64,000 nucleotides of DNA from Holothuria scabra (taxonomy: Eukaryota; Echinodermata; Holothuroidea; Aspidochirotida; Holothuriidae). The stretch is from the NCBI GenBank assembly GCA_037179385.1, contig CM074179.1:33939905-34003904 (forward strand). Reading direction: 5' to 3'. The position numbers and the translations under genes were made by a program. Below, piece after piece: positions 1,936-53,700 of the stretch. How positions within the stretch are numbered: the stretch's first letter is position 1; every line of letters begins with the position of its first letter. Below the pieces are notes generated by a model. The model was not told the DNA's origin. It ran no database searches and saw nothing but the letters and a program-made list of their open reading frames with translations.

Positions 1936-2290
1936 ATGAATCAGAGACAACGATGGAAAGTGATGGTTTTATCATCAATTCTTTTCTTCTTGGCATATTC
2001 CATAGGAATTACGGATGGAAATACCGATTGCACAAATATCCCTATTTTGAAAACTGGTGAATCGATAAGACTAGATTGTGACGACGCAGCGACGTCAGGA
2101 AACCAGTGGAAACACGAAGACGATCTCTTATTCGCCAACAACAACGCAATAAGCCGTAAATTTGCGCAAAGTACGGAGTTGTGTGCCAACTATTCTCTGA
2201 TAATTGATCCTGCAACCAAAGAGCATGAAGGAAGATATGCCTGCATTCGAAACTCGCACATCTTGGTTCAATATTGCCTAAAATTTCAGA
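1936..2290 (+). CDS. Exon 1: signal peptide and Ig-like domain 1
   Basis: The ATG at 1936 starts a basic N-terminus (MNQRQRWK) and a hydrophobic run, VMVLSSILFFLAY, typical of a signal peptide. An upstream in-frame GTG at 1912 is not a likely start. The Ig domain shows IRLDC, a Trp (QWKH), the sequon NYS and the closing GRYAC. Three further Cys (TDC, ELC, QYC) could form extra disulfides. The donor is CAGA|GTAAGA and the exon ends in phase 1. Confidence 0.8.
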
Positions 2291-5200
2291 GTAAGAATAG
2301 TTAATGAAAGAGGGAGGGTTAAAAAATCTGCAAATTCTTTTGCAGAATAAGACCACAACGAACTCTCTATTAAATTAGGCCTAATTATTAAAATGCGGTA
2401 GTAATGACATATTATGTAAAATGCTATGTAATGAAATATCATTCAGACAGCAATTGTCTTGCCCTATTCTTGAAAAGTATTCTCTCTTAATGGTTGGGAG
2501 TAATTATTTGCTCTTTTCTGGTATCGTTTCATAATGATATACACAACAAGTCCACTATTTTACCTAATTTAACGGAAATTAATTTAAACGGACGGTAACC
2601 TCTGAATACGGCAGGTTTTCATTTAGAAAAAATGAAAACGTAAGGCTGGAAGAACAGTTAACGTGACTTCGGGCCTGGGTTGGTGCTGGTTAAAGACTGT
2701 TGTTGAGAGTTCCGCGGTTGGTGGCTATAATGAAACGAAAGCGCGGATAAAACCGGGTGGTTGTACTTGGTTGGCAAGTATCAAGGCGTACTGGGTGTGT
2801 ATGTAATTTGATTGGACTGGGGCATGCCTGAGAAAGCACTGGTGTAAATGGAAGTAGCCCCTAATTGATCCGTTGGCTGAATGGACTACTGGGACTATAA
2901 GTCGAATACGATGCCTAGAATTACCTGGATGTAACGTTATGTTATTACAACTCGCCTTGCTTAAATTGAAGGTCTGTGAACTTTGCCTCAGACTGTTCGA
3001 TACACTCAGTCAGGCGAGCTGGCCTAAGGCTAGACTAGTATAGTTAAGTTACTAGGTATTAGTAACACGCCTTTGTTCAATCGTACAGATTAGGGCCTAT
3101 GAGTCTTATCATATCTGGGTTTACAAACACCCAAAACAAACAGAAATCAATAGATAAATTACGACTTAGTCTACAATCTACACACAAGTGTAAAATTAAC
3201 AAAAAATTATTTACGTTTGTAGTTAGGATAAGCGTGAACCTTAACAGTTAGTTGTAAAGCTTGAAAGTTTGACTGCTTTCACTGTACTGTGGCAATGCAT
3301 CGTGCAGTTGTTTGATCTAGTTGGGTGGTGAGTTGGAAACAGTTCCGACAAAACAAAGGCGTATTGCTGGGGAATGCAACCTTTCAAACCTATTTTGAAA
3401 TAAATGGGGGTTATGAATTTATGTCAAAGTACTTCACGCATTTTTTAACATGAGAGAACATTTTTAGTTGTTAAACAAAATCCCCTTTCACTGAAAAAGG
3501 AAGGAAATGCTGAAAAACCTGATATACTTCCGCCCAAACGAATAAGACGGGTGAAAAGCATGTGCAGGAAGAAGCAATACCCCCAATCGAAGCTTTGACT
3601 TTGAATAATCAGTAACTTGAAACTGATGCAGACATTTAACCATACAAAAGTTTTCTATAGAATTCTGTAGAAATACCTATAGGACTCTATAGAACTCTAT
3701 AGTATCAACGATTTTTTGTAGAAATGTTTACTGTCCTCTGTAGAAATTTGAAGTCCCTTTAGAATTCTATAGGATAGCCGCTTCTATGGAGAACAATTTC
3801 GATAGACTTATTCTACAGGATACTCTCAATAGAAATTCCATGGAAACTTTTTCATACATATCTATAGAACTTGCATGAAGGTTCTATAACATTTATATAC
3901 ATTTTCTTCACAACACCTATTTAACATATTAATTTACATAATTTGAAATAAAACTGGTTCATTCAAATCCCTTCTTTGATCTTTGCAATGATAAAAGGTT
4001 CGCACCCAAAATATTATTCTAAATTGAGCAAGAATTACTGAAATTCCATCTCTATTCACTGAATTACCTATGGTATTGGGTGAAATGGGCGTGGCCAATT
4101 GTTTGACATAAAACTTTGGATTCAAAAATTAAATATTTATGTTCATAGTAGGTTTAAACTTATTGGATTTTTGGCAAGAAATATTTTTTGCAGAAAATAT
4201 AAGTAGTTCATCAGTGTAGACAGATAATAGTAAGATTTATGACCTGTTTTCTTTGAAAATGAAAATAACGTTTGAAGTAACGTTTTTCATTACAAACGAG
4301 TCACAGGCGGGGTTTATGCACCATTTGCTCCTATTTTACGTTATCAAACAATGTCTTCAACAGCTAAGCGTAATTCCGCTCTTGGCCCCTCCGCTTTCTT
4401 CCCCGAGACAAAGGAGATATTGGAAAAAGGTTAAATCATCTTGGATGCTATATTTCATGCACATTATGCTTACGGTGCTGTATGGTTAGTTTCTCTACAT
4501 CTGTAATGTCAAATTACAGGTATTAGTCCATAAACTTACATACAATTTCTTAAGAATCTCTTTAGAAAAGGGGCCGATTTTCTATAGAACCTTCATACAG
4601 TTTCTTTAGACCCTTGACACTGTTTGTATAGACCCTCTATACGTTACTTATAGAACCTCTAGACAGCTTCCATAGAACCCCACTAATTCTCTAAAGAAGC
4701 TTATAGAGTTTCTTTCGAAACTTATAGAGTTTCTTTAGAAAAGGGGCCCATTTTTCTAAAGAACCTCTGCCGGGTTTCTTTGGGTTACTTAAGAGTTTCT
4801 AAAAAGCTGTTCTGTGGGCTTTTCTTTTAGAAGGATTGTTAGAATTTCTATATAAAATCTTATACAGTTTCTACAGAATTTTTTCTATAGAATTCTGTAG
4901 AAGAATTTTGTATGGGTAGGTCAACAATTTAGTAAAGTATTTAACACTTCAAAATCGTGTGAATGAAAAGTTCAAGCGCTATTTGACCATCACATAGTAA
5001 TTCAGCGTTAATAGTTTACAAACAGGCTATGGTAGAACTTAGGCCTTGTCCCAAAGTATCTTACGTAACGTACCGCAAATATGTTAATGTTAATTGGTGT
5101 CAAACGAAGGCGAGTACCTCTTAAAAGTTGCACAAATATGTTAGAAAGCCATGTTCCAAAATATCTTACGTTACGTACGGCAAGCACGGCAAATGTTAAA

Positions 5201-8200
5201 GGCATATTCTTGAGACAAAATTCTTTAACTTCAAAATAAGCAGAAAAATTTTCCGATTCAAAAGGTGAAAACGGCATCTGCATAGCCTATAGCATTTGGA
5301 AGATACAAAATTTTAAAGTATTGCAAATTTTTCTTGGGATTTGATGTATCATGGGAAATTTGTGATGTCATCGTGACACATTAATTTAACATTGCATTCA
5401 ATTTATTTATAATTATGATGACGCTGTAGGCTGAATTAAGCAATATTGCTGGTTGTAGTCTACGTATGGTGAAGGCGGGTAATGCTAGATCTACAGGAAA
5501 AGATATTCAACCATTCCAACAGAATCAAATTTCAAGGACAAACAGGATGTTCAATTATAAAGAAAAACAAAAGGAATCTGAAGCAATGTGCCTACATGAC
5601 ATAACTTTTTGTGGCTTTTAAGTGAGATATCTCGAGTTAAGAAAATGGTATTGTGATAGGATTTGAAGGCATGGTGTGGAATTTTTCTGTTTTTCTTACA
5701 AGACAGAAGCAAAATCCCACCAGAACATGCCTTTACCAACCACCTAAACCAACTTAATTCCATCTTAAAAATTATAAACCATTTACATATTCCTCACAAA
5801 AGTCATGTAGGCCTCTAGCCTGACGCGAGGAACACTCGATGCGAAGACTTTTAGTAAGACTGAGCAGTTAGTTAACAACTGTCATGTCCCTTTGGTATTC
5901 AGCTTCCTGCAGTCTGCATCTGGATAAATACTACACAACACTCCAGGTGGAGTTAAGCGTGTGGGATTCGATGTGTACATGGAAAATCGGCCCTCATGTC
6001 TGAGAAACTTCAAGGCAGAGTTCTTGAATTGCTAAGGATCCTCGACACCTGTTATGTGCTGGGGAGTAGATGTCAGTCTCTGACAGTATGAGGGAAGAAA
6101 CTGTATTTGTAACAGTTCTTCTCAGTTGAGATAATAGAATAACTGATCGAGTGGCGGCATCTAGAAGGCCTCCCGACCGGTTGTGAGAGGTTGACAAGAG
6201 GCAGTGCAAGGAGGCTCAGGCTGGCTTTGTAAAGTGTAGCAAGTCTGCTAGCAGATCTTCTGTCTTTGAGATTATCCCACCCTAGGTCTTTCAACATTTC
6301 AGTAACACTACTTCGGGAGGAATAGTTATTGCAGACAAACCTTGCATCTCTAAGCTGAACTTGCTCAATTTTGTTAATTAAGGAAGCCGTATAAGGGTCC
6401 CACACAGAAAAAGAGTACTTAAAATAGGGACGCAAAGGAATAAAATAGGCACTAGGCTTGATACTCTTGGGACAAGAGTAAGGATTTAGTTAATTTTAAT
6501 CAAACCAACAGTTCGGGAGATAACCTCTTTCGGAGGAAAATACGGCCATGGATGGCGCCATTTTCTCCCTTGATGGTTTGGAATCCTACCGCGAAATTCA
6601 ACGGACGCAAACGTTCAAAACACCTGGAAAATTTCATCGATCTTAGGAACCTTTGCAATTTTTAGTAACTTTGGCGACAGGAGAAAAAAAAAGCCGGTTC
6701 ATGTTGGGTAGCTCACCGGGCAAATTTTGAGATATCCAGCAATTTTACCACCTCGAAACAGCATAATTTTTAGGGAGCAATTCATTAAACAACAGGGCTC
6801 TTGGGATGAGTTTCAGTACCAGTTATTAGGTCAGGATTATTTTCATCAATGCAGACATTTAAGTCAGGAACCTTTTTACGGATATCTTGAAACTTGATGA
6901 AAAGGATTTTTAAACTAATTTTGTTGGTTTATAGTAAGACTCAATCAAAACTGGGGAGGAAGACAGCAAAGGGGAATTAGGGAGATACGAGTAATACTAT
7001 GAGCCCCAGGTGGGGAGGAAGTCAAAGCTATCATCATAAGGATCATAAGGTATCAGGGTTATCAAAGATAGAATATGAGAAATTTGGAATACCACATTGG
7101 CAGGAGATCCAGGTTACGTTTCTGTTGGCTGCTATGTCCTGGTAAACAGCAGAATTCATTTTCATTCGATTGACATGGTACCTGCTTTGACAGTGGTCAC
7201 AACAAATGGCTGTTTGCCTCCATTTCGAGGCTTTGCAGCATAACACGCACGTGAACTTGGAAGTTGACGGGCCAGTATTGGAATGCAGGTCCCAAGAGAA
7301 CGTGATGACCAGAATAGATAAGTAAGATACTGTTCGTTTAAAGGGCACAGAACCAGAGGGGAGGAACGGGGCCATCTTAAGTCGGTTATGGATGAACAAC
7401 AGACTAGTTAAGCTAGGTATGAACTTGACGCAATCATACGGGACCAAGAATAGTTTCGCATACCCCGAGGACCCACTCTCATTCCTTGATACAACATTGT
7501 TAATGACAAAAGAATACCTATTACACACAGAGACTGCATAGAACATTTACTGTACAACTCTTACGTTTCTTCAACTTAGCTCCCACACCACTCAACATAT
7601 TGTCTTGTATCAACCAGACCCTGAAAGCTTGATTTGCCATCTTTATAGTGATGTTTATCTTCTCCCTATTTGACTTTCTTCATCCTTCCTTTTTACTTAT
7701 AGAGAATGTCTAGAGACACTTTGCTTTTCAGATTTAACGTCAGAAGCCTCAGACAAACTCCGTATGTTGAAACGGTGATTACTTCCCTTTGAAGTCCTTG
7801 TTCAAATTGTAAAAAACAGATTATCGAAGAGGAAATTTATTATCTTCAAGTTGATGCTAAAATCAAATTCAATACAATTTAGCCACGCCAAAACGAGGAT
7901 GAAGTTCATAACCCTAGAAAGACGTCGGCACTTTTTGGTTACTAAACTTTACCAATATATAACACGTGTGTAAATTTATCACAGGTAGAAAGAACAGAAA
8001 CGTACTTGATCGACATAGTGTCTTGGCTCTATTGCGAATTGCGAAATGGAGAAATGAAAGCTGTAAAATAACTGATGAAGAGTGGAATAGAAGGATCAAT
8101 TCTCCCTGAGGTGTTTTTTTTATAATTCTGATCAAACAAAGGTTTTTCGAACTGTAAAACTCAAAGAAAACTTGTGTCACTTTCGTTGGAGGCAAGTTGG

Positions 8201-11200
8201 AGGCTGAATCGGCAGTTTGGAGGTGTGGGCACAGTAGGTTCAACTGATTTTGTATAGTTACAATAACTGTACATTTGCCACATAGCACTGTACTTCTGTA
8301 GATTGTAGAGGTGAAATTAGTGAATATATCATCTTTTTAAAAAACAAACACAAAATCAAATGTACTTAGATCAGTGTTTTCATACTACTGTAAAGTATTT
8401 ACACTTCTTACGAAAAACTGCACAAAACCTAGGGAAATGTAGGCCCACGGTTAAGTTTATTTTAATTGGCGTTATACTGTTAGAAAATTTAGTAATCCAT
8501 TGTATTTTAGCTGCTGTAATAGGTTCAAAACCGCAAAAAAAAAAAAAAAAAAAGAATTTTTATTAGGCTTGAGATAAAGCACCTTTACAACGTTAACGGG
8601 TTTATATATTTAAGAAATTTTTAAGATTCTGTTACATTTCTGTACAATGACTTATGCTAAAAAAAAGTTATCTTGAATTTGTTTCCAAGCTATAATTGAT
8701 ATCTTCGTGACAATCAATGGCCGTGACTCGGATGAAGTGAATTACCAACATTTTGAAGAAGGGAAAGAAGTTGTATTTGAATGCAGTGCATTTTCTGAGA
8801 AACCATTGCGGAACTTGACTTGGACGTTTAGTAACGGGGATACCACATCCGCACTCACTAACTTCTCGTACTCACGATATGTGCATGAGAACCAAACATA
8901 CCATGAAAAAATAGTCCTAAAGCACCGTCCTTGCTCAGAACAAGAAAATTTTACTTGTATTGGGATGGATGAAGAACCCACAGCGACTACATACGTTTCG
9001 GTGCATTACTTTACATATGGTAAGATTTGTAACTGTTCTGGAAACCATTGTTTGAAACTAGTAGTACATCATTAAGTCGGTTGAACTCTGTCTTATTTCC
9101 CTCGTAACATTTTTGCGTGGGTCTGGTGTCGGTTTAAGACAGTGTCTGCTGGATTGCCTCTGCAAAGATACTCACATGTCACGACAACTACCAGACATAA
9201 TAAGTTTACCTGAAAACCGATTGTTAATGTCCATTAAACCCCATCCAGACGCAAGGAAGAAGACTGCTATTTTATCAGATATCCACCTGACAACATTATT
9301 TAGTCGCAAGAGAAATTCTTCTTTTTTCTTCTTTTTCAGTCAGACGCCGGACCTACCTCAAACAATCACTGCATGATCTCCATCTGAATGAATACTGATC
9401 ATACTGATTAAACTGTTTATATCATAACGACTAATCAACTTACTGACTGACTGAGTTTTAACTTTCTTACTATCTCAGTAACCAACTATTTAATAAACTA
9501 CCCGAGCAAAAGAATTATTGACTAACAGGCTAACTGTCTGAATGACCGGCTGACTGACTGAATTACCAACGAAACATTATCATTATACGTATTATTACGT
9601 TTTAAGAGGTGGTAGAAAAGTTTGTGAATGCTGAAAAGGCCTTATCATATTTGTCGTATTTCTTTGTCGTAGCCCCTCCTGTGCTTCAGATTCTTGCCGA
9701 CAGTGAGAACATCGAGAGCGGATTATCAGTTTCTCGTGGAAAAGAATTACAGTTACGATGTTTGGCCAACGGTTCCAGACCATTGGTAAATTTGCAGATA
9801 ACATCAAGTAACACGGAGATCCACGCTGAAACAAAAACATTAGTCAGTCAACATGTGACGCATATCGACGTGAAATTTCGAGTTACCGAACCAAACACTT
9901 CAATTACCTGCCTATCAATAAGCCCAATAGTTGGACAGGAGAGATCAAAAACGATCTTTATTAAAATGACTAATCAGGAGGGCGTTTCAACAGGTACCTT
10001 TATAATAATTGGTACTAAGTCTTTTTGGTATTCTTAATGGTATATGAATAGGGTTCCTAATATCTACATGGGGCAGGAATGACGTTAATTAGTAGTATGA
10101 AAAGATTAGATTGCAACATAGAATCTAGCAAACACATTTAATGCTTAAATCTTTGTTAATTACATGATTCTGTGTTATGCTGTCATATCTCCGTGGAGAA
10201 AAAATGCATTGTTACAGTTTGATACAATCAAAATGATACTTGGTTTGCTAAATTTGAAATCATTTGCTTTCAAATAAAATAGTAAGTTGCAGCTGGCACA
10301 ACGTCTTCGAAATAATGTTAATTGTTGTAGTTAATGTGCGAATACAACCAATGTTACAACTTCAAACCCGCCGAAAGCTAAAAGCACTTTCACATATATA
10401 TGTTACTGTGCTATTGATTCTTTGTGTAGAGAACAAGCAAGTTTCGAAAGTCATACTCTTCTTTCTACTCGCCTTTCTTGTAATTGTGGCCAACATTGCA
10501 TGTTTCGGGATATTACAGAGTTTCAGACGTTTCAAGAAAAGTAAGTTCCAACCACTTTGTATGTCTGTTGGCCTGTATGTCTCTCCGGTTGTCTCTTTGT
10601 TTAGCTGTATTTATAAATTCTCATCTTTCAATGTATCTTTCAATAAATAATACATCTACGTGTTTATCAATCAACCTCTAAAATAAATAATACATCTGTG
10701 TATCGCTTAACGATACATACGCACATACTGTACATATGTTTGTACGTATTTTTAAATATATTTCTTAATGCGTCTATGTGTGTACCTTTCTATGTATCTT
10801 TTAGTAATGCATCTTTGTGTAAATGTTTCAATGGAAGGTGTCTCTTAAAAATAAATCAATGTATTATTTACGATGTATTTTCTAGTAATAAATCTATGTA
10901 TTTATCTTTCAATATATTATTATAAAAATTATTTTGTGTATTGCTTTGGCTGGTTACCTGTTTGTCTATCAGTTACTCTAAACGTTTCTCTCTTTTCAAG
11001 TTCAAAAGTAACCAAAAAAATCGACCATGGCATTTTTCATCTTGCTGACTAGATAAAATAATTTATATTTCAGGAATCGGAATATTCTATAAATGCAAAC
11101 TGACTGTGTTTAAAAGTTAGTTTCGTCCACTTTCTTTAACAGGATCCCGTTCACGGAAGGCTTTAAAGTAAGACTCTTTTTTAACAATTTATCAACAATT

Positions 11201-14200
11201 GTAATGTAATAAATTGACCGTCATGCAAATTTAGCTACAAAGTACACTGTTCAAGTTGTTGGCCGTGTCAGCTATTTATAAAGTTTCATCAAAGGTACTC
11301 GAGGAAAGCAATCTATGAAATGATATTTCTTTTTGTCTGCTAGTGCAACTAATCTGTTCCTATCCCAACGAGCAACAGTAAACGACGGTTCGTATAGTGA
11401 GTCGCCGTTGTCATGTAACGTGGAAGGTAACATTCTATTGTACTAGTTTGTTAGGATAGGCCTTCTTTAATTGGAAAACCCCGACCGCCTTCTTTATACC
11501 TGTCACATACTAAATTTGGTCATTTGAAACATGCTTTGCTAGATTTAAAATGGAATCCATCATACCAAATTTTCTCACCAGGAATTCGCAGCAAACATCA
11601 TCCAATGGGGTAAGCATTTAATGAAATTCATTTGTTGACAACTGTTAAATTAAAACTATTGTATACTCTTTAAAAGTTGGTTAAAAAAATTCACCAACAC
11701 TGGTCACGTATGTCAAATACCTGAAAGTGGTTAAGTTGTCCCCAATATTTGTTGTTTATTTGGTTACCACACAGGCTGGTTGCCCAATAAAGTGGTAAAA
11801 AACCTCTTGGATAACCCATTACTCAACAATTATTGGGTAAACTTTAACCAGTTTCAGGTATTTGACATACGTGACCAGTGTTGGTAAGTTTTTTAACCAA
11901 CTTTTTTTTAGAGTGTAACATTCGTTGCAATCGAACTGAATATTGTATTGCATTACATCAGATAGATTATTTAATCCATTCTTTGTTTCTTGCATACAGC
12001 GCAATGCTAGATGAATCTGTTCAAGATGGCGCAAACCAACTTTCGTTGGATGATGAAGGTAAGGTCAGAAACACAGTAAATGTAGGTAGCGTCAAACCCG
12101 TTTCCAGACAGGATTTTGGAGCAGCGGACAGTTTCTCAGAAGAGAAGAAAAAAGTTTACGGGGCCCATATCTGTGAAATTTGATAAAGTCAATAACAATC
12201 TTCAAACACCCTGGGGAACAATTATTTAGTCGTACCCCCCCCCTCCTTGGTCTGGGTGACATCTTCCAGAATTTGTCGGAACGGAAGCGCAGACAAATAG
12301 CCTGGCTCGCCAAAAACTTTACAAATTTGATGATTTTCGATTAGTGTTGAAAACAATCAAACAAATTTGTGGAGAAACTGTTCATTGCGTCGATATTATT
12401 CCCTGTGTGGGAGACATCCTTCGTAACAAAAATTTATAAAGCCATAGTAAAATTACATGAAGTTAGTGGTTACAGACGATTGTAATGATCCGAAGGGTGA
12501 GTGGTTAACGAGACTTAAAACTTTTCAAAAGCTCTGGAAGAAAATATAGTGATAGTACGCTTCACGGTATGAAGAAAAAGCCTATACCAGCCAGCTGCTA
12601 AGACTTGGCATCCAGATTTTTCCAACGTTAATCCATTCTTTGAAATGAAAAAATGGTTTTTCTACAGATTGTTACTCAATACTGGGAGACGAACAACAGG
12701 ACTGTAAGATGTTCCATTTGAAAGACATACGAATAATATTCAACATGAAAAAAAGCTCAGTATATAGCCGAAGAGTTGGAATGCTTAATGAAGGAAATGG
12801 TTCAGCACGATGTGTGGTACTATCAACAGTCAGTGGTATGTATGGTTACCCTCACTTATATGTAAACACTGAAATAAACTCATTTTTTCACTAAAACTAA
12901 AAAATATTAAATATTTAAATATTTAAAATTTATAAAATAATACCCCATCTGTTATCTTAAATTTAGATAAATTTAATTCAATCTCAACTCAGGAATATGA
13001 ATTGAAGATATCAATTTTACCGTTTGGAATTTTGTATGCGTCATTACCGAAAATCTTCTATTTTTTTTTTACCTTCGGTATACTTCATAGATGAATCGGT
13101 AACACTTGAAAAGCCAACCTGATAACCTTCTTCCTCCCATAACACATTTTAATGCGTAGGCAGATTATAATGTCCCAAAGCATAGACCTTCAATGGATCC
13201 CTAGGAAACTCACGCCATGACCATGCAGAGAAAGGTTTGTCTACAATCCAGCACAAATCACCGTGCTATTGCTTGAAATCTTCATCTAATAAAACCTTGA
13301 TGAGGTGATTTTCTGTCTAATCACCTACTCTACATTCCGGTGATGGAATTGGAAGTCTGATATACCTCTCTTTGACAGCAGGAGAGTCAGGTTTAGGGAT
13401 CATAATTTAAGAAAGATTCGATTCCGCTTGTGAACATAAGTTAAAGTAATAATGAAAGTTTTTGTTGCAATATTAATACCAGATGACAGACAAGACACAA
13501 TCGGCGTCAATTGGAGCTCCTACGTACAAAGACTGTTAGAACTGCCTGATACAGACAGCCTCGTGAAAACTGAAGGCATATGCATTGGCGACGGTATGTA
13601 TAGCCCGATTCTTTTGATTCAAGTTGAGGATTAATCTTAAAACGTAAAAACCTATAAGACAGAAGTTATTCCATACTTGTACTGCGTTCAATATACAAAT
13701 ATGCATGGCCTAAAGGTCTTCGCGGCAATTTGATATCATTTTCATATTTACCCGTGTAGACTGGGGGTTGTAGAACATGCCCACCGCTTTGCGTGAGGCG
13801 ACTAAAGGGAAACCAAACTTGAACTTTAACCTTACTTGAACATAAATTCAAACTTTGACCTTTTTATCGAGTGGACTGACACTACATTACACATCTAAGT
13901 GTGTGTCGTTAAATCTTATCTTATTTTGTACTTAGTTAACTATATTTGCATATTGGTTCAATACAGTAGAATATGTTGGCGTTCAGGGACATTATTTGCA
14001 TACAATCATGGTGGTGTTTCATATTTCTATGTGAAAAAAGATGTTTATTTCACAGTCACAATGTCTCATAATAAGCAGTTCCTTAACTAATTGCCTTTTT
14101 CCTTTTCATCTCAAAAGCAACCTTGTTCTTGATTACTGAGTATGTGGCATGTGGCACACTCGACCAATATATCACAAGCAAAGGACCAACAGATGATCTG

Positions 14201-17097
14201 GTACTTAAGAAAAGTAACCGCTTTACTAATGTTTTGGAAGTCTTATGCGGAATAGAGGTCATCCATTCTTACGGGGTGTGTAATATTACGCAATCCTCTT
14301 TTTAAGTCATCCCATTTAAAATTTGTTAAAATGTAAGTGTAATTTTTGGCACTTCAATTGTTTTTAAAACAATTGTTCTCGGTTCTAACTACTTAAATGC
14401 TATTTTACGGTTTGATTTACTCAGACAATTAGAGAAAATTTTATTTTCTTTAACTAAAATACGAAATCAATGTCATTCAGGTGGCTAAAATATTATGGAT
14501 GAAAGTATGCAATTTCATCTGTCATATTGATACACCACGCTAGTTGTTCATTCTCCATTTTGTCTTAATTCAGTTTCTTCATCCAGGTTTATCCATGGAC
14601 AGAATTCTTGTTTCAGACAGTGGCAAAATGAAGCTATATGACTTCTGTCTAACCGAAGACGCCCCAGGAATACTCTTAATCAAGAAAGAGAAGGTTCAAA
14701 AATTTACCATATTTTGAGTTTTGTCGTTAACAACGAATCGTAAAACAATTTTGGAACGATTCAGTCCCACACAATGTTTTGGTACAGATTCTAAGCCTTT
14801 TTCATCCCTTAGAAAAATGTCTAACCCCCGGTGTACAAAATAACCTTCAGAAAATTTGTTCAAAAAGTCCAAAAAGACTCCAGAGTTAAAGCAAAATCTA
14901 CGTAATGATGACTCTTTTCCCCAAGCACTTGTGAACCGCTGAACTGAATTGCAACCGTCTTCTTATTTGGACAACAGTTTTCAAAAAAGGTTCAATTTAT
15001 TTTTCCTGTTAGAATTGTTGGATATGAACAACGACGGCGCCACAATATCTCAACTGGGCGGGGGGGGGGGGTATAAACTAGGGTCAGAGTATAAAGCCGA
15101 GCTCAAGTCGCCAGTTCCCGGAAGTTCCGGAAGCTCTGGGGCTTCAGCGAACCCCTGGATAGGTAACTCAGTCTCTGGAGATGTATACTATTTATTAACT
15201 TCTGCGGCTAATTCAACTAACTGACCTACCTGGGTGACGACGGTAAGTAGGGGGAAAGGAAAAAAATTGTTTGGAAGTGCCCCTTTTGTCCCCCTGTAGC
15301 GAAAAACAGGATATGAATAAGGTAAAAGTATATCTAACAGTTCAGTAAAAGTCAATGTCGGAGGGCTGTGCCCGTTGCTGATTGACTGCATTGGTCGGTG
15401 GGCAGTTGTATGTTCGATCTGTAGATCTGTAACAATATCTTATAACGTTTTGATGTTGAGTTAATTTATAAATAATTTATTGGGAATTAAGCTTATGAGA
15501 TAGGTTTCCTTTTTATTGTAGCACATGAGCAAGGACAAGATCTTATTACCACCAGAAGCTTTGTCAAGGAACGAATACTCTACAGCTAGTGACGTGTGGT
15601 CAATCGCCACGATCATAGCAGATATGATTGCAAAAGGTTGTATGAAGCTATTTCCATAGATTAAGTACGAATATATAAAAAACCAAACACCTTTTCTACG
15701 TGAAACAACAACAATTTGATGTTACTTTGTACAAAGGTAACGAACAACTTATACAGTTTCAGTTTATAAAATGTAATTTACACTTCTTACTGATTTTTCA
15801 GGTTTTCTGCCTTGTTCACGTTCGAGAGATCCTTCTTTTACTCCAAAAGATGAGTTATACGAAGGCTGGTATCTGAATTCCGAAACATTTAACGAAAAGT
15901 GAGTACTATACTAGATATCTTCTATCAGAAGGAGTAATCGTTTTCATCATATTTGATAACCGAGCATTGGAATAAAGTATTGCAGGATTAAAAACCATGG
16001 AAGACCGAAACATTGAAAGGGCACAACAATATAACAAATAGCACTACTGCGCCCACGGGTAATTTACCGAAAAAAAAACCAAAAAAAAAAAAAAAACAAA
16101 CAAACAAACAAAAACCACACTTACAAATGGCTATAAGAAGTAACAAAAATACTGAAGCGCACTAACTTTTTACTTGTTCACAAGAAAATTCATAGAATGA
16201 AAATGAAAGTGCTTTTATCAAATAGGCCTAACCAATGGTTTTGTATTTATTCTTGGTGTAATGTTTAGCTCCTAAAAGACTCTGGAAATTTCATGGTTAC
16301 AATTTTACATGAAATCGTTCTCCTTTTTAAAACCATATGGAATAACTAAACGACTATATCTGTAACATAATAAGGCTATGTAAGTTATTCCAGCAGCCAA
16401 AAATAGGGTGCATTAAGTACAAACTTAAACGAAACGACTGAGGCAAAGGGAGACGGATAGACTATTTTAAGACTATCTACGTCCATTTTTAAGTCCAAAA
16501 ATTAAAATGGCACTGCCTGCGAATTTCATACAATCTTCATACTATCTTTTCTAGAATTCTTTTTAGGGACTCGGTCCTATCCAAATGTTGGAGTAACGAT
16601 TGTTCAGAACGTCCTAAAATCAGAGAACTACGCTTAGAGTTGGAAAAGGTAATGTAAAAAACAAATGCGTTATTGTTTGTAATATAAACAAGGTGCAACT
16701 TTAGTTTCACGTTTGTATAGGGGCCCAAAGGAGGAGTTCCAAATCCAAACCCCCTTTCGACATATCGAAAGCCTGACATATTGGGATATTACAAAAGCAG
16801 TAACTTTAATGTGTCCACAATTTGAAATTTTCCTGAGATTTCCAATGTCTATATCTCTACAGCAAAGCCTCGCACATGTAATGTTCATAGGTGTAGGTTG
16901 AGAAAATTCTGGCTCCGCCCGTCTAAATGCAATAAAACAAAGTAATGAAGTTGAACTCCTCTACAACTTTATTTTAACACTTACTCTTTATCTCTTTTAC
17001 CTTAATACAGATGTCAAAGTTTCTTGGTGACCAAGAGGCAATCCCAAATAGCACCTCGACTGACTTGTACACCCCAATGAAAAGTTGCGATGCCTAA
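1936..17097 (+). CDS. Ig-domain receptor tyrosine pseudokinase (16-exon model, 761 aa)
   Basis: Joined exons: 1936-2290, 8690-9019, 9673-9993, 10430-10540, 11143-11167, 11344-11426, 11582-11609, 12000-12058, 12668-12835, 13459-13593, 14118-14275, 14574-14693, 15522-15636, 15802-15898, 16555-16648, 17011-17097. Phases agree at every junction and the total is divisible by three. Layout: signal peptide (about 1-28), Ig1 (30-118), Ig2 (119-228), Ig3 (229-335), membrane helix (343-364), juxtamembrane (373-437), kinase-like domain (about 460-733), short tail with YTPM (753-756). It should be a type I plasma-membrane receptor. Family anchors remain: hinge ITEYV, PPE in place of APE, SDVWS, and CW...ERP. 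Catalytic residues do not: HRD is HPG, the loop Asn is Arg, DFG is DFC, and no Tyr is seen in the activation segment. The ligand is unknown. Three Ig domains recall FGFR-like receptors, but I cannot assign a subfamily. The weakest junctions are the exon 10 acceptor and exon 12 donor. Confidence 0.85.
3640..4915. mobile_element. Non-autonomous TIR element with TCTATAGAA subterminal repeats
   Basis: The left end reads CCATACAAAAGTTTTCTATAG and the right end is its near reverse complement (TTGTATGG at 4908-4915). The inverted ends are roughly 30 bp with mismatches. Dense copies of the palindromic words TCTATAGAA and TTCTGTAGAA fill the first 240 bp and last 370 bp, leaving a central unique stretch. 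A 78-codon open frame in the middle (4253-4489) resembles no known transposase. A DNA transposon derivative is the best explanation; the target duplication is not clear. Confidence 0.6.
5820..6435 (-). pseudogene. LINE reverse-transcriptase C-terminal fragment
   Basis: The minus-strand frame 6435-6073 reads as the thumb and C-terminal end of a CR1/Jockey-type LINE polymerase. It contains FSVWDPYT, INKIEQVQLRDARFV, MLKDLGWDNL and YKYSFFPHTVRD. At the next codon a stop replaces the Trp usually found in this W-N-x-LP block. The frame carries on recognisably but with more damage to about 5820. It is a dead copy inside intron 1 of the receptor gene, in the opposite orientation. Clade assignment is from memory of the motif pattern and not certain. 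Confidence 0.7.
7043..7546 (-). pseudogene. LINE N-terminal PHD-like zinc-finger fragment
   Basis: The minus-strand frame contains HSNTGPSTSKFTCVLCCK, AICCDHCQSRYHV and WISCQCGIPNFS. This is the PHD-like finger that stands before the endonuclease in many metazoan CR1-type LINEs. One zinc ligand appears lost (Arg follows YHVN where Cys is usual), and the WxC spacing is altered. Only about 600 bp separate it from the polymerase tail at 6435, so the endonuclease and most of the polymerase are deleted. It is not a host PHD protein. Confidence 0.65.
8690..9019 (+). CDS. Exon 2: Ig-like domain 2
   Basis: The acceptor is TTTCCAAG|CT and the donor ATG|GTAAGA; the exon is symmetric (phase 1 in and out). 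Ig landmarks are VVFEC, the Trp in NLTWTF and the closing ENFTC. Sequons NLT, NFS, NQT and NFT suggest heavy N-glycosylation of an extracellular domain. Confidence 0.85.
9673..9993 (+). CDS. Exon 3: Ig-like domain 3
   Basis: The acceptor is GTCGTAG|CC and the donor CAACAG|GTACCT; phase 1 to phase 1. The domain begins PPVLQI, with Cys in LQLRCLANGS and the closing SITC. The core Trp of the Ig fold seems replaced (VNLQI), so the fold may be divergent. Sequons NGS and NTS are present. Confidence 0.82.
10430..10540 (+). CDS. Exon 4: transmembrane segment
   Basis: This 111-bp exon (phase 1-1) encodes a short stalk (ENKQVSK), a hydrophobic helix starting VILFFLLAFLVIVAN, and the basic stop-transfer RRFKK. 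The donor is AAAA|GTAAGT. The polarity puts the Ig domains outside and the kinase-like domain in the cytosol. Confidence 0.85.
10541..11142 (+). repeat. Intron 4 with degenerate ATGTATCTTTCAATAAATA-like repeats
   Basis: From about 10560 to 10930 the intron is made of loosely repeated words such as TGTATCTTTCAAT, AATAAATAATACATCT and CTATGTAT. The periodicity is irregular and the copies are diverged. No exon signal was found. Confidence 0.5.
11143..11167 (+). CDS. Exon 5: 25-nt juxtamembrane micro-exon
   Basis: TTTCTTTAACAG precedes the exon and GTAAGAC follows it. It adds the basic segment RSRKAL just inside the membrane and changes phase from 1 to 2. It is supported by strong splice sites and by restoring the frame into exon 6. 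Confidence 0.7.
11344..11426 (+). CDS. Exon 6: juxtamembrane
   Basis: The acceptor is TGTCTGCTAG and the donor GGAAG|GTAACA. The exon encodes a Ser/Asn-rich cytosolic stretch (NATNLFLSQRATVNDGSYSE) with one Tyr. Enters in phase 2, leaves in phase 1. No domain is recognised. Confidence 0.7.
11582..11609 (+). CDS. Exon 7: 28-nt juxtamembrane micro-exon
   Basis: It is flanked by TTTCTCACCAG and GTAAGC and encodes GIRSKHHPMG. Enters in phase 1, leaves in phase 2. Both splice sites are good and the frame stays open into exon 8. Confidence 0.65.
11663..11917. mobile_element. MITE with about 68-bp inverted arms in intron 7
   Basis: The left arm begins TACTCTTTAAAAGTTGG and the right arm ends AGAGTGTA. 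The arms share long near-identical blocks, for example GGTCACGTATGTCAAATACC on one strand and its complement on the other. The whole is 255 bp with no coding capacity. The TA next to the ends would fit a Tc/mariner-like target, which is inference. Confidence 0.75.
12000..12058 (+). CDS. Exon 8: juxtamembrane, acidic
   Basis: The acceptor is TTGCATACAG and the donor GAAG|GTAAGG. It encodes AMLDESVQDGANQLSLDDE. Enters in phase 2, leaves in phase 1. No domain is recognised; it links to the first kinase-like exon. Confidence 0.72.
12668..12835 (+). CDS. Exon 9: start of kinase-like N-lobe
   Basis: TTTTTCTACAG precedes the exon and the donor is CAGTG|GTATGT (phase 1-1). An internal GTAAGA at 12704 could act as an alternative donor, but read-through stays open and supplies N-lobe sequence. 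The glycine-rich loop is reduced to EGNGSARCVV, keeping two of the usual three Gly and lacking the aromatic residue. Confidence 0.72.
13459..13593 (+). CDS. Exon 10: beta3-alphaC region, catalytic Lys and Glu not seen
   Basis: The frame reads VFVAILIPDD, then YVQRLLEL and TEGICIGD, matching the beta3, alphaC and beta4 run of tyrosine kinases. The VAVK lysine position is hydrophobic, and no Glu stands at the expected alphaC site. The donor ACG|GTATGT is good. The acceptor GAAAG|TT is weak, with no pyrimidine tract; upstream in-frame stops at 13446 and 13449 leave no better choice in this phase. Confidence 0.65.
14118..14275 (+). CDS. Exon 11: hinge and alphaD-alphaE of the kinase-like domain
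   Basis: TTCATCTCAAAAG precedes it. The sequence TLFLITEYVACGTLDQYI is a clear receptor-kinase hinge, followed by a short linker and GIEVIHSYG (the alphaE end, before the catalytic loop). The donor GGG|GTGTGT at 14276 leaves phase 0; GTAATA at 14280 is a rival donor, joined to an acceptor at 14586. Confidence 0.82.
14574..14693 (+). CDS. Exon 12: catalytic loop HPG and DFC motif
   Basis: The acceptor TGTCTTAATTCAG is strong. The exon reads FLHPGLSMDRILVSDSGKMK then LYDFCL, aligning with the kinase stretch from HRD through DFG. The catalytic Asp is Gly, the loop Asn is Arg, and the DFG glycine is Cys; the metal-binding Asp survives. The donor AAG|GTTCAA is poor, so the exon end may be a few codons off. 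A downstream acceptor (14586) would remove HPG but still leave no HRD. Confidence 0.78.
15522..15636 (+). CDS. Exon 13: activation-segment end and alphaF
   Basis: TTTTTATTGTAG precedes it (phase 0). Motifs are LLPPEALSRNEYSTASDVWS, equivalent to the APE-to-alphaF block, including the structural Asp of SDVWS. The activation segment from DFC to PPE shows no Tyr. The donor AAAAG|GTTGTA leaves phase 1. Confidence 0.82.
15802..15898 (+). CDS. Exon 14: kinase-like C-lobe
   Basis: It lies between TGATTTTTCAG and GTGAGT. It encodes GFLPCSRSRDPSFTPKDELY and a segment ending SETFNE, the alphaG region. Enters in phase 1, leaves in phase 2. Confidence 0.75.
16555..16648 (+). CDS. Exon 15: end of kinase-like domain (CW...ERP)
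   Basis: The sequence VLSKCWSNDCSERPKIRELR is the conserved alphaH-alphaI block of tyrosine kinases, including the structural Arg. Two in-frame acceptors exist, at 16554 and 16566; the upstream one has the better pyrimidine tract. The donor AAAAG|GTAATG leaves phase 0. Confidence 0.78.
17011..17097 (+). CDS. Exon 16: C-terminal tail with YTPM and stop
   Basis: TTACCTTAATACAG precedes the exon. It encodes 28 residues, ending DLYTPMKSCDA and TAA at 17095-17097. YTPM fits the YxxM consensus bound by PI3-kinase p85 SH2 domains when phosphorylated. That role is inferred from the motif alone. Confidence 0.72.
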   Translation: MSKFLGDQEAIPNSTSTDLYTPMKSCDA

Positions 17098-17267
17098 CTC
17101 AACGTTGAATTGAATCAAATTAATACTCCAAATGCGCCGACTTAAAATAGCCAAATCTGAAGCTATCACAGAATCATATTACATAGATTATACATATATA
17201 GGCAAACAGGGCTACATGAAGACAGACGCCTCATTTTAAGAAGGAAAAAGGTTGATTGTACCAATGT

Positions 17268-34675: not shown

Positions 34676-35824
34676 AAGTTACGCCCGTCTGGGAATGGGT
34701 CTTTTTGAAGAACAAATGGAAGAAAAAAACCGATTATTCGGAAAAGGTATATAGATGACGTCTGGGGCCTGTGGGATAAAGGGGAACAGTCTTTCCTGGT
34801 TTTTATGGAAGAACTTAATTCAATGTATCCAAATGAATTAGTGTTTACCTATGAGTTCGACTTCTCCAGAGTGGTTTACCTAGATTTAGAAATTACCCTT
34901 AACGAAGGTCGTATTAGTACTAAACTCTTTACTAAGCCATCTTGTAAGAATCCTTTATATTTGCACTATTCTTCGTTTCACAAAAAGTCGGTTAAAGACA
35001 ATATCCCTTTTTGTCAAGCTCTCCGCATTAAAACTGTTTGTTCCAATGATGATGATTGTGATAAGAATTTAAAAACTTTAGAAATAAACTTAAATAAGAG
35101 AGGTTATCGTACCGAGGTGGTCAAAGAAAAATTTAATAGGGCTAAAGGTTTTCCTCGTAGTTCTTTACTTAGGACCAGCAAAGGTGAGAACGTTTCGACT
35201 AAAGCACCAAAAGCCCCATTTGTGGTTACTCGTAATCCTCGCTTACCTCCCTTACAAGAAATCATTAATAAACACTTCCATATTCTTTCTATGTCAGATA
35301 AAATGAGGGAAATCTTTGTTTCACCACCAAAGGTAATTTACAGACAACCCCCTAACTTAAGAGATTTGCTCGTAAGAGCGGGAGTGCCGAGAAACACTCC
35401 GACAAATTTGGGGAATCACAGATTACACGAAAAAATCTGTGTTACTTGTGAAGTTATGTCAGTTACAGACTCCTTTAAAAGTTTTTATACAGGGAAAGTT
35501 TTCAAAATACTAGGTAGTTTTAACTGTATGTCGATTGGGGTTATTTACCTTATTAATTGTTTTGATTGTGGGAAGCAGTATGTGGGTGAGACGGGGAGCC
35601 AATTAAGACAGAGACACCGGGGTCATAGGCAAGAACTGAAAAAAGCTAACACTCCTCTTGGAAAACATTTTAACACGGGTTGTAAGTTTTTCAATTTAAT
35701 CGCCATTCAATCGGTCGAGGGACTTAACAAAACACAGAGGGAACAAAAGGAACGTTTTTGGATATACCAACTCCACACGTTTGTACCAAAAGGGATTAAC
35801 ATTCGAAAAAGCCACAGTTCATAG
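34676..35824 (+). pseudogene. Penelope-like element 1: truncated RT and GIY-YIG endonuclease
   Basis: A frame from about 34676 reads YARLGMGLFEEQMEEKN, the block just before the RT active site. It then shifts frame in an A7 run near 34722. The next frame reads KRYIDDVWGLWDKG (the YxDD motif) and runs open to 35824. It covers the RT end, a linker with an ICVTC pair, and a GIY-YIG nuclease domain (GVIYLINCFDCG then QYVGETG and RQRHRGH). The upstream half of the RT is missing, so the copy cannot be complete. The RT and GIY-YIG pair is diagnostic of Penelope-like elements. The downstream 339-codon part is undamaged, and the flanking inverted repeats are nearly identical. Confidence 0.88.
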
Positions 35825-36240: not shown

Positions 36241-36573
36241 TTGGTTCACGATTTCAACCCCTTCTGCATACATTCTTAATAAAAAAGTGCATGTATATTA
36301 CCTTCATGGTGCCCTCTTTATTGTGTCTTTATATAGACGTAATAAACACAATGTATAGTATGTAGATTTGCACGTGAAAAAAGGGGTGTTATATCTTGCG
36401 TTTTCTAAAAATGTACATTTAGTTAACACGTAAGTATTGCAAAATACCTTTAATACTTTGTTTATTTTATTATAACTTGTGCGTACGTCATACATAATAA
36501 ATATACTATACATATTATTGTTGGCGCTGTTGAAGTTTATGGTGGTATTTTATTTGAATTTTTTAGTGTCTCT

Positions 36574-37803
36574 ATGTGCAGATACATTAATTATTTACAG
36601 GTAAATGGGACGGCTATGGGTACAAAAATGGCACCGTCATATGCCAATATATTTATGTATCATGTGGAAGAGGGAATTTTGATGCAATCTTCAAACAAAC
36701 CCTTATTCTATGTACGATATATAGACGACGTTTTTATGATCTGGGACAAAGGGCTGGATAATTTAAAACAATTCTTTAATGTTGCTAACAGTTTTCATCC
36801 TTCCATCAAATTTACTTTTGATTATTCCTTTAAGACTCTGCCCTTCTTAGATGTTCTGGTAATGATTGGAGACGGTAAGATCACCACGTCCGTCTACACT
36901 AAACCTACAGACAGACATACGTATCTCCACTTCAATAGTTTCCACCCCCGTCATACCAAACACTCTATTGTGTACAGCCAGTTCCTTCGGTACCGCCGTT
37001 TATGCTCCACTAATAACATTTTTGTGGAAAGGGCCACTGAATTGGTTAACTTTTTTCTCAACAGAGGATATCCCTATAAACTCCTCAACAATTACTTTCA
37101 TAAAGTTCTTGCTACACCGAGGCATAATCTCCTTCGGTATCGCACAAAATCGAACTGTGACCGCATTCCCTTAGTCATCACATACCACCCATCCAATCGC
37201 ACCCTTACCCACAATATCAAGAAATCTTGGGAAATACTCAAATCTGACCCCTCGATTTCTGAAATTTTCAGGGACCTCCCGATGATTGCTTATAAACAGC
37301 CACGTAATTTTAGAGCCATGTTAGTTCGCAAAACCCTTCCCACTGTAGACAATCCCAAAACAGGCAACAGGAAGTGTAATAAACCCCGGTGCCAAGTTTG
37401 CAATCATTTAGAGCTTTCCCCCACCATTTACCACCATGCTTCAGGTATAACTCTAAAACCGGGAGACTTCGATTGTGACTCATGTAATGTAGTTTATTTA
37501 CTTTTCTGCATTCAATGTCCCTTAGCTACGTACATAGGCGAAACAAGCACAAAATTCCGACTTCGTTTCAATAATCACAAGCTCAGCATAAGAAAGAATA
37601 ACCCTGGATTCCCGGTTGCCGAACACTTTAATCTCCCTCAGCATAACCTTTCCCATTTAAAGTGTGCCTTGTTGTACGGCAATTTTAAAAGCGCTCAGCA
37701 GAGATGCAACCGTGAGTTACAAACCATCATCTCACTTAACAATCATAAATCGGGTCTGAATAGGGATTTGGCGTTCATGGGCACCCAAGCAGTTGATACC
37801 TAA
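36574..37803 (+). pseudogene. Penelope-like element 2: 5'-truncated RT and GIY-YIG endonuclease
   Basis: This 409-codon frame begins inside the RT domain at NGTAMGTKMAPSYANIFM. It continues with YVRYIDDVFMIWDKG, FLDVLVMI and YTKPTDRHTYLHF, all RT blocks of Penelope-like elements. A Cys-rich linker (CNKPRCQVC and FDCDSCNVVYL) leads into GIY-YIG (VVYLLFCIQCP, TYIGETSTKFRLRFNNHK), and the frame closes at 37803. The N-terminal third of the RT is absent, so this is a 5'-truncated copy, although the rest has no stops. Protein differences from PLE1 show that it is a different family. The ATG at 36574 is incidental, not the native start. Confidence 0.88.
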
Positions 37804-50700: not shown

Positions 50701-53700
50701 TCAACCTTCTATGATGAATGTCTACATCTAGTGAAAAACGTCATCTTACAACGTAAAAAAAAGAAAATGAGAAGATCAGGGAGTTGTGACGTTTTCCTGA
50801 GCAGGTGCACATTTCCTGTCAATGAACAAGTGCCTATTGCTGATATGTCATGCCAAATCATTTCTTGAACATAATTTCAACACAAATCTGATAAAAACAC
50901 ACATGCATGCATTTAAAGGGGGAAGTGTAAGCAGAAATTGGGGTTTTACATAGAAGAAGAACCAAATCCCCACAGTCTGGGGATATTTCCATTCAAATGG
51001 AATGATATATCTTTCGAGATATCAGCAAATGAGGTGATTAGATTTGCGTTCCAAAATGATCTTAAGGGCAGCAGAGATTATATCATTTTGTGCCATGTAC
51101 AAGAAATGCTTTGTTTCCCTTTTTTCAAACTCGCAATGTTAACCTTGACGTTAATAGGACCTCCCGATGTGAATTACAAAGCTTGAAAGTTCTCATGCCA
51201 CTTATGTAATCACATTTTGATAATTTGTGACTGTTGAGGAGAAAATAGGCTCGATAGTTTAAAGAAAAACAAAAAAGTTGGCATTATGGGAGGGATGATG
51301 TCAAATGTGCTAGCTTCAAGTTCACAGTTTGTTGAAAATATGACAGTTAAACTTGCTCATATGTTGAGAACCACACATCGGGTTTCATGCAAATTTCACT
51401 CAGAATGCTAAGTATAAGTACCCCTCTAACATTTCAAAGTTGGATATGACCTTAAAACCTTTCCTTAATAAATCAGGCAACACAATCTGTTGGCTGGTTT
51501 GTGCTGCCGCTGCCAAAGCTTTCTTCATGGTCAGAAAAGTTTATTTCCTGTTTGCCGAGTTCAAAGAGAGTTTCATACATTTTTAACAGTCACTTAAACA
51601 GCGAATGTCGTCGAGCATACATTATGCCAATTTTGTCATTATTGGACTTTCAATTGCTGATAAAGAAAAGAATTACCATAGTTTAGGGAACGAATTGTTT
51701 CCCCATTTACATTTCTTATGAGTTTCATTCCACCTCCGTTATCAATATATATTCATATTCAAGTTTAGTCTGTGAGGAATACCTGCCGGCTGCTACAGGC
51801 GTCGGAATGGTTTCTTGAAAGTTCCAAGAGCATGAAACACCTGTAAATTGCCGCAATTCTGGGCATGCAGTAGTGAGGTTCTAGAAGTGCCATTTCCAGA
51901 AATCATCATCCCTTCTTAACAAGATATTCCCTCGTCAGTTGTCCGAGCGAATCCCAACCTTGAAAGAGAGGCCCGTTCTCTGTTTTAATGACATCACCCA
52001 TGAGCGTTGCTTGCCAATGATTACCTTACCTCATCTTGTGGTAGCAGCGGTACAGTTTATTTGGGAAGGCTATTTTTCTTATAATTGTGCAATTTTTCCT
52101 TTTTTTCCCTCTTTTATTGATATGACAATTGTATTACAGATCAAAGCTCAAAATAACGAACGCTTCAGATTTACTTGCAAGACTGGAAATGACATTCCGG
52201 CTGTTAGAGGATCACGATTATTCAAATTTTGTGCAAGCTCCGGGCTAACCCAATGATTGCACTTCCCTCATATTTATTTTTTCATGTCGTCTCTGCCGTT
52301 GTTGAAAAGGGAGAAAAAATAGTAGCTGCATATTCAAATTGTTACGTTACATGGACACGATGAACTTGATTCAAATAATTGCTTGTGTATGTGCCTGTGA
52401 ACATGCTCGTTTGTGCCGCTTTAGGCTTACTGTAGCTCCACGCTATCTCAAGATAGCTACCATAACTGTCCCTATGGAGTATATAAAACAATAACATTGT
52501 GTCATAGGTCGTTCGCATTAACAGATCATCTGTACATTGTTCGTGCAGGAGGATTAAACATTAGGAACCATGTTTGAATTCGATGACTTTGGTTTAGCAA
52601 ATTTAACCCAAACCACGTTGATGATACGTTAAAAACTTTAATTTCCATTTCTAAATTTATATTTAACCCTTTACCGTTGTTTGCGTCCTTTTGGACCCGG
52701 GGAGAGCGCGGCGAGCTTTTTAAGTGCATTGAAACGGCACGTACAAAACAAAAACAAAAACAAAAACTCAAACCGGATTGGGCAAAAACATAAACGGAAA
52801 CTATTTACAGACTGCTAAATCAAACAGAAAATTATGTTCATTACAGTAATAAAGCTATATATACAGATATTTACAAAACTGTGTACAGAAAATTACGTTC
52901 ATTACAGTAATAAAGCTATACATACAGATATTTACAAAACTATTTACAACAACATAAGCACCTTACAGACCCACCCAATTACAAGTTGACCACCACACGG
53001 TTCCTCCTCACCAAAACGAGTGGACCCCATCGCCTACCGAACGCCGACCTTAGCAAACGAACGAAGTCGGAATCAACCCTCAGCCTCACCTCCGCCTTCA
53101 CCGACGCCAGGACGACGTCCGCAGGCTTCCCCATCCCCCTAAAAACAACGTTACATCGGTCTCTCCATAAGGCCAGCTTTTTGGAGGCCGAAACAAAGGT
53201 AAGTATGCCCTGAATACTTGTATTGCATGGCGGGGGTGAAAGACCATACAAGGCATAGTCCTGGCCGACCGTCCATGTGTTGCCCAACGTCAAGCGATCA
53301 GTCAGGACTTGGAACCATTCCCAAAAGAGGGCCACAAATTCACACTGTCAAAACACACGTGACACACTCTCCCACTTTGTGCATCCAGTGCGTGGGCAAA
53401 TGCCATCTCCAAGACGCCACCGAAGACGCTTGAGATTAGTTACAATCGCATCATGTGCGATTCGCCACAACAGGTCTCGCCTGCGGTAATCTAATGATCT
53501 GCTGTGGACCACACGCCACACTTCCGACCCTGAAGCATAGTGGTTGGACTGGACCTGGTCAACCAATTCTTCAAAAACAGCCCGGTATAGGTCCCTTGCA
53601 CGTAACTGCGAAACATCCCCAACTCTAGACATAATTAGGAGCGTTTCTCTCATTTGACTGTATGCTTCCGAGGGCCTCCAGCTGTGGGGTTCACTGTTAC

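Follow-up and report, generated by a model that had tools for sequence, protein, structure and literature searches.

A Holothuria scabra receptor pseudokinase gene belongs to a sea-cucumber family with Ig-type ectodomains and a conserved YxxM tail

Results

Gene structure

The window, by which we mean the whole 64,000-nt stretch of Holothuria scabra DNA that was analysed, contains a gene of 16 exons on the + strand (1936-17097), which splice-phase assembly joins into a single frame of 749 amino acids. Every internal exon boundary has AG before or GT after it, and the phases agree. The product consists of three Ig-type domains, a membrane helix and a kinase-like domain; the Ig-type and kinase calls come from a Pfam scan, and the signal peptide and membrane helix were recognised by eye. 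The exons are as follows.

1936-2290, +, exon 1: start, signal peptide (by eye) and Ig-type domain 1 (Pfam Ig_3, residues 38-104)
8690-9019, +, exon 2: Ig-type domain 2, phase 1-1 (C2-set_2, residues 142-215)
9673-9993, +, exon 3: Ig-type domain 3, phase 1-1 (Ig_2, residues 248-287)
10430-10540, +, exon 4: membrane helix (hydrophobic stretch, by eye)
11143-11167, +, exon 5: 25-nt juxtamembrane micro-exon, placed by splice sites and phase only
11344-11426, +, exon 6: juxtamembrane, placed by splice sites and phase only
11582-11609, +, exon 7: 28-nt juxtamembrane micro-exon, placed by splice sites and phase only
12000-12058, +, exon 8: juxtamembrane, placed by splice sites and phase only
12668-12835, +, exon 9: juxtamembrane Tyr440, degenerate glycine loop RRVG, Ser490 in place of the beta3 Lys
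13483-13593, +, exon 10: alphaC region, Tyr507 at the Glu place
14118-14275, +, exon 11: hinge to alphaE
14574-14693, +, exon 12: HPG (586-588), Arg593 in place of the loop Asn, DFC (606-608)
15522-15636, +, exon 13: PPE and SDVW
15802-15898, +, exon 14: C-lobe
16567-16648, +, exon 15: CW...ERP box
17011-17097, +, exon 16: C-tail with YTPM (Tyr741-Met744) and stop

A first-pass annotation of this DNA had described 16 exons, two of them micro-exons, in one frame with consistent phases, and our reassembly agrees; of the span it gave, 12668-17097, the end stands but the start does not, since the gene begins at 1936. The kinase-like domain matches PF07714 with an E value of 2.9e-25 and 89.5 bits (Pfam cut-off 23.1), and the Ig models also score above the Pfam cut-off. 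No tandem paralogue of the gene was found inside the 64,000-nt window. Elsewhere in the window we noted by eye long frames that resemble Penelope-like retroelements at 34709-35824 and 36454-37803 (+; reverse transcriptase end and GIY-YIG-like part) and LINE-type retroelement frames at 53348-57555 (-; endonuclease and reverse transcriptase).

Evidence on the exon joins is provided by P0089, a protein of 267 amino acids encoded on a 920-nt contig, which aligns with the window protein from residue 492 to the stop, covers exons 10-16 and is identical at 162 of 265 positions (61%). We take its source tag, 'lgn', to mark sequence assembled from public reads, which may be of RNA or of DNA. Because exons 10-16 of the window gene span 3.6 kb with six introns, the short contig is best read as the spliced transcript of a relative, the alternative being an intron-free copy, and P0089 supports the predicted joins from exon 10 onward. 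The first-pass annotation had singled out the exon 10 acceptor and the exon 12 donor for checking, and alignments of relatives bear on both. The one residue of length difference between the window gene and P0089 lies near the exon 12/13 join; P0089 begins at exon 10 and hence holds no evidence on the exon 9/10 join, across which 66 of 83 relatives (described below) align without a gap, 15 having deletions and 2 insertions.

Catalytic residues

Position and family alignment place Ser490 where the beta3 Lys is expected and Tyr507 where the alphaC Glu is expected. The HRD motif reads HPG, with Gly588 at the Asp place, the loop Asn is replaced by Arg593, and DFG reads DFC, so that Asp606 is kept and Gly is replaced by Cys. 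Of the residues expected in a catalytically competent kinase, the DFG Asp alone is present; other residues stand at the places of the beta3 Lys, of the alphaC Glu, of the HRD Asp and of the loop Asn. The earlier reading of HPG, Arg and DFC, of a weak glycine-rich loop and of a missing beta3 Lys and alphaC Glu was thus accurate. Its statement that all main catalytic motifs are replaced proved slightly too strong: most are, but the DFG Asp and the HRD His are retained. The product combines an ectodomain, a membrane helix (by eye) and a kinase fold lacking essential residues, and so has the make-up of a receptor tyrosine pseudokinase.

The residues that remain are largely structural ones. The kept His of HRD and Phe of DFG belong to the regulatory spine, and the APE Glu and the ERP-box Arg, which form the usual C-lobe salt bridge, are present in 83 of 83 and 74 of 74 relatives respectively. 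As judged from these residues, the structure of the domain is kept and its chemistry removed, and we are highly confident that it is inactive as a conventional kinase. The retained DFG Asp may leave room for binding of metal or nucleotide.

A sea-cucumber family

A kinase-region query returned 28 family proteins among 34 hits, and a profile search returned 119 hits, of which 79 belong to the family, hereafter family A, or to its sister group. These rows end at an E value of 2.2e-63 (1.7e-58 for P0092), and the row that follows, labelled elephant-shark ephrin type-A receptor 7, stands at 4.5e-23. Both searches pooled gave 86 proteins; P0092 falls in the sister group, leaving 85 relatives, which are protein clusters and not genes, as they may mix isoforms with sequences from several A. 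japonicus assemblies. By table count 58 of the clusters are from A. japonicus, 23 from H. leucospilota and 4 from unnamed sources ('lgn'). The searches were non-exhaustive: the profile search scored the 8000 candidates sharing most words and missed 7 of the 28 family proteins found earlier. As far as these two protein searches go, family A is large, and each member whose species is named comes from a sea cucumber. P0105, an Ig-only protein of A. japonicus, was left out of it. A PF07714 search of the H. scabra genome itself, where the window occupies C1:33939905-34003904, gave 148 matches; because the window gene's own exons escaped this search it is blind to family A, and the count gives no paralogue number.

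The replacements seen in the window gene recur throughout the family. Taking as denominator the members with a residue in the column, and excluding P0092 and the window gene, the HRD place has H in 84/84, P in 84/84 and G in 79/84 relatives, with Asp at the third position in one of 84 (P0042). Ser or Thr occupies the beta3 Lys place in all 78, Phe or Tyr the alphaC Glu place in 80 of 82, and Lys the loop Asn place in 83 of 84; the DFG place reads D in 82/84, F in 84/84 and C in 83/84. We define family A by HP.L, Lys or Arg in the loop, DFC and a C-tail YxxM; the window gene shows all four, with Arg in the loop, and groups with P0089 inside family A in the tree described below. It is the most divergent member at conserved columns, keeping 29 of 33: it has Arg in place of the RWMG Trp and of the loop Lys, and lacks the juxtamembrane LPxIP motif. 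The stem that it shares with P0089 in the tree is long (1.14).

That divergence is what could be said for a decaying pseudogene, a reading that we consider very improbable. The frame is open through 16 exons, and comparison with P0089 shows zero stops and gaps of whole residues only, whereas in the absence of selection one would expect about 6 stops for every 100 missense changes (P ~0.0025; a rough figure and partly circular, P0089 having been listed for its open frame). Neutral decay is further disfavoured because identical letters are fixed in relatives that average 45% identity in the domain (38 of 86 proteins), and a lone decayed gene is ruled out by 85 relatives with shared replacements. 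The conserved equivalent substitutions in these relatives strongly support the first-pass view that this is a pseudokinase and not simply a dead gene, and the window gene almost certainly belongs to a real functional family. An error in the gene model, with true transcripts carrying an HRD- or DFG-containing exon, is scarcely credible. The donors of exon 12 (gttcaa) and exon 13 (gttgta) do look weak by eye, but a pattern scan, which intron-split patterns would escape, found HRD...N nowhere in the window and no DFG on the + strand in 12000-17200. The introns of the window gene show no canonical catalytic exon; transcripts with such an exon spliced in were what the first-pass annotation had named as fatal to its reading, and a hidden catalytic exon was rejected on this ground; moreover, the relatives themselves carry HP (84/84) and the Cys of DFC (83/84). 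An alternative donor after exon 11, noted by eye, would remove the HPG, whose H and P are present in 84 of 84 relatives. Of 892 tblastn matches, 48 lie within the gene span off any exon, and the 20 printed among these are weak (best E 0.025).

Ectodomains

We compared ectodomains in the 38 of 86 proteins with a clear membrane helix, taking the 200 residues before the helix, which are not necessarily homologous Ig domains. After 10 of 703 pairs had been dropped as more than 85% alike or with too short an overlap, the ectodomain was more divergent than the kinase domain in 693 of 693 pairs (25% vs 45% identity), a difference that suits varied recognition. An Ig stretch of P0092, a member of sister group B, is 83% identical to P0007 of group A over 18% of P0007. 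This likeness suggests that ectodomains have been exchanged or that the receptors are paired, although it may also come from a fused gene model.

Sister group B

Group B consists of P0092 and 14 further proteins (P0133-P0146), 13 from A. japonicus, one from H. leucospilota and one unnamed. The catalytic loop in this group reads HP[GAVE]L, or YPGL in one half of P0133, and Lys replaces the loop Asn. Most members have LYDFW, the exceptions being LYDFC (P0135 and one half of P0133), LYDIW (P0143) and VYDFW (P0146). At the beta3 place Lys is kept, or Arg is found in two, and 12 of the 15 tails have YF.L or YF.V. In a tree of 45 rows (22 of the 86 family A proteins, 9 of the 15 of group B and 14 active kinases, with P0030, P0147, P0155 and P0119 left out), group A (100/100), group B (99/94) and the active kinases (100/100) each lie on one side of a branch, and long branches join A and B to the active kinases. 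If the root lies among the active kinases, both groups trace back to one shared loss. Catalysis was probably lost once and early, a single origin being unproven since long branches meet in the tree (tool warning).

C-tail and conserved tyrosines

YxxM is a docking motif for the SH2 domains of PI3K p85. Among the 68 tails of relatives that align, all have Tyr at the place of Tyr741 and 67 have Met at that of Met744. An alignment-free count found YxxM after the last RP box in 71 of 85 relatives, as against 11% of shuffled tails; the commonest form is YVPM, and the window gene has YTPM. Of the 14 relatives without it, 10 end before the tail or within 6 residues of it, and four (P0025, P0062, P0063 and P0075) have tails of 26 to 49 residues that lack the motif. 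Of the 74 relatives that can be scored at the juxtamembrane Tyr440, 67 have Tyr, and the activation segment is without Tyr in 66 of 78. Conserved tyrosines that lie outside the activation segment suit phosphorylation by another kinase. An ITIM at the juxtamembrane Tyr was considered and dropped, as only 8 of 68 fit.

Discussion

Comparison with known receptors

Family A shares an Ig ectodomain with the FGFR family. Most of the top PDB rows are FGFRs, both by family profile and by structure model; with the window protein as a single-sequence query, EGFR, JAK2 and CSK entries rank above FGFR. The structure model is that of P0065 (74 rows), which replaced one of P0054 (23 rows; pLDDT 57.2, Foldseek top rows BTK). 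FGFRs differ from family A in being active and in carrying tyrosines in the activation loop, of which P0094 and P0097 have two.

The ErbB/HER family is defined by a receptor L and furin-like ectodomain, and its member HER3 has several tail motifs. A Pfam scan with E up to 1 found no receptor L or furin-like domain in the window protein. Family A may work in a HER3-like manner, yet it is not an ErbB because its ectodomain differs, being of Ig type where that of HER3 is of the EGF-receptor type. Human receptor pseudokinases, few genes per species, resemble family A in having altered catalytic residues in a receptor. In the table of PMC13259870, however, eight of them all keep H-R or H-K and none has H-P or DFC. 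The same table credits HER3 with VCIK, HRN...N, DFG and an ATP site that is accessible; family A retains, from these HER3 motifs, only the HRD His and the DFG Asp and Phe.

Proposed mode of action

We lean towards the view that family A proteins are diversified Ig receptors, enzymatically inactive, that are phosphorylated by a partner and dock PI3K in the manner of HER3. On this view the diversified ectodomains would recognise a variety of ligands, the tail Tyr would be phosphorylated by a partner that is an active tyrosine kinase, and PI3K would dock on the phosphorylated tail via its SH2 domains, with the pseudokinase serving as a folded platform for dimerisation or allostery. The model is HER3, whose kinase domain is impaired and whose tail recruits PI3K after phosphorylation by a partner, as summarised in PMC13259870. 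The first-pass annotation proposed that the protein signals as a scaffold, decoy or allosteric partner; the conserved YxxM tail narrows this choice towards a phosphorylated docking receptor, and on whether the partner-phosphorylated YxxM route is the one used, our judgement is evenly balanced.

It is unlikely, to our mind, that the proteins are instead decoy or dampening receptors with an incidental tail, blocking or tuning active sea-cucumber receptor kinases whose ligands they share. The domain is predicted to be inactive across family A, and the 83% Ig stretch of P0092 and P0007 recalls paired receptors, though both are pseudokinases; a pure decoy, however, would find both kinase fold and tail superfluous, and both are strictly kept. 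An unorthodox active enzyme or nucleotide sensor, in which the DFG Asp and the new loop Lys make a different catalytic or binding site, seems less probable still. Those two residues are nearly fixed (82/84 and 83/84) and some pseudokinases have proved active, but the Lys, the Glu, the HRD Asp (found in 1 of 84 relatives) and the loop Asn are lost and the glycine loop is degenerate. Going beyond the partner-phosphorylated docking receptor that we prefer, one might tentatively imagine a single ancient loss that gave rise to two sister groups with differing docking tags (A with DFC and YxxM; B mostly with DFW, beta3 Lys or Arg, and YFxL/V), and, within one animal class, a large and fast-diversifying Ig recognition repertoire built entirely on a dead kinase, acting like paired immune or self-recognition receptors and signalling only via borrowed kinases. 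We regard this wider scenario as possible but doubtful.

Relation to earlier work

The A. japonicus genome paper of 2017 (PMC5638244) names five expanded families; one of them is 'tyrosine-protein kinase receptor', whose expansion it connects with the nervous system and with signal recognition. A 2026 preprint repeats the list (PMC13228809). At the two places in the main text of PMC5638244 where 'kinase' occurs, loss of catalysis is not mentioned. Some A. japonicus relatives in our searches bear tyrosine-protein kinase receptor names, and the expanded family probably includes family A. Tyrosine kinases go unmentioned in passages of two Chiridota heheva genome papers (PMC8913654, PMC10764150), and 'sea cucumber' is absent from the main text of a study of the holozoan tyrosine kinome (PMC8662651). 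A search of a single literature library found no paper treating family A as a pseudokinase family; the sea-cucumber pseudokinase papers that it returned concern MLKL, a different protein. The expanded A. japonicus receptors would probably need to be re-read as receptors without an enzyme of their own. With dozens of relatives, two stages of loss and one nearly invariant replacement site, the family offers a natural test of why a kinase fold persists after catalysis is lost.

Neighbouring kinase genes

Two kinase genes lie ~63 and ~109 kb downstream of the end of the window gene. Their catalytic-loop exons, at 4753-5022 of L021 (G000:C1 ~34020300) and 4692-4904 of L022 (G000:C1 ~34066200), have HGD...N and DFG with an activation-loop Tyr. 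Both kinases look active from these motifs and are candidate partners. A similar HGD exon occurs in L027.
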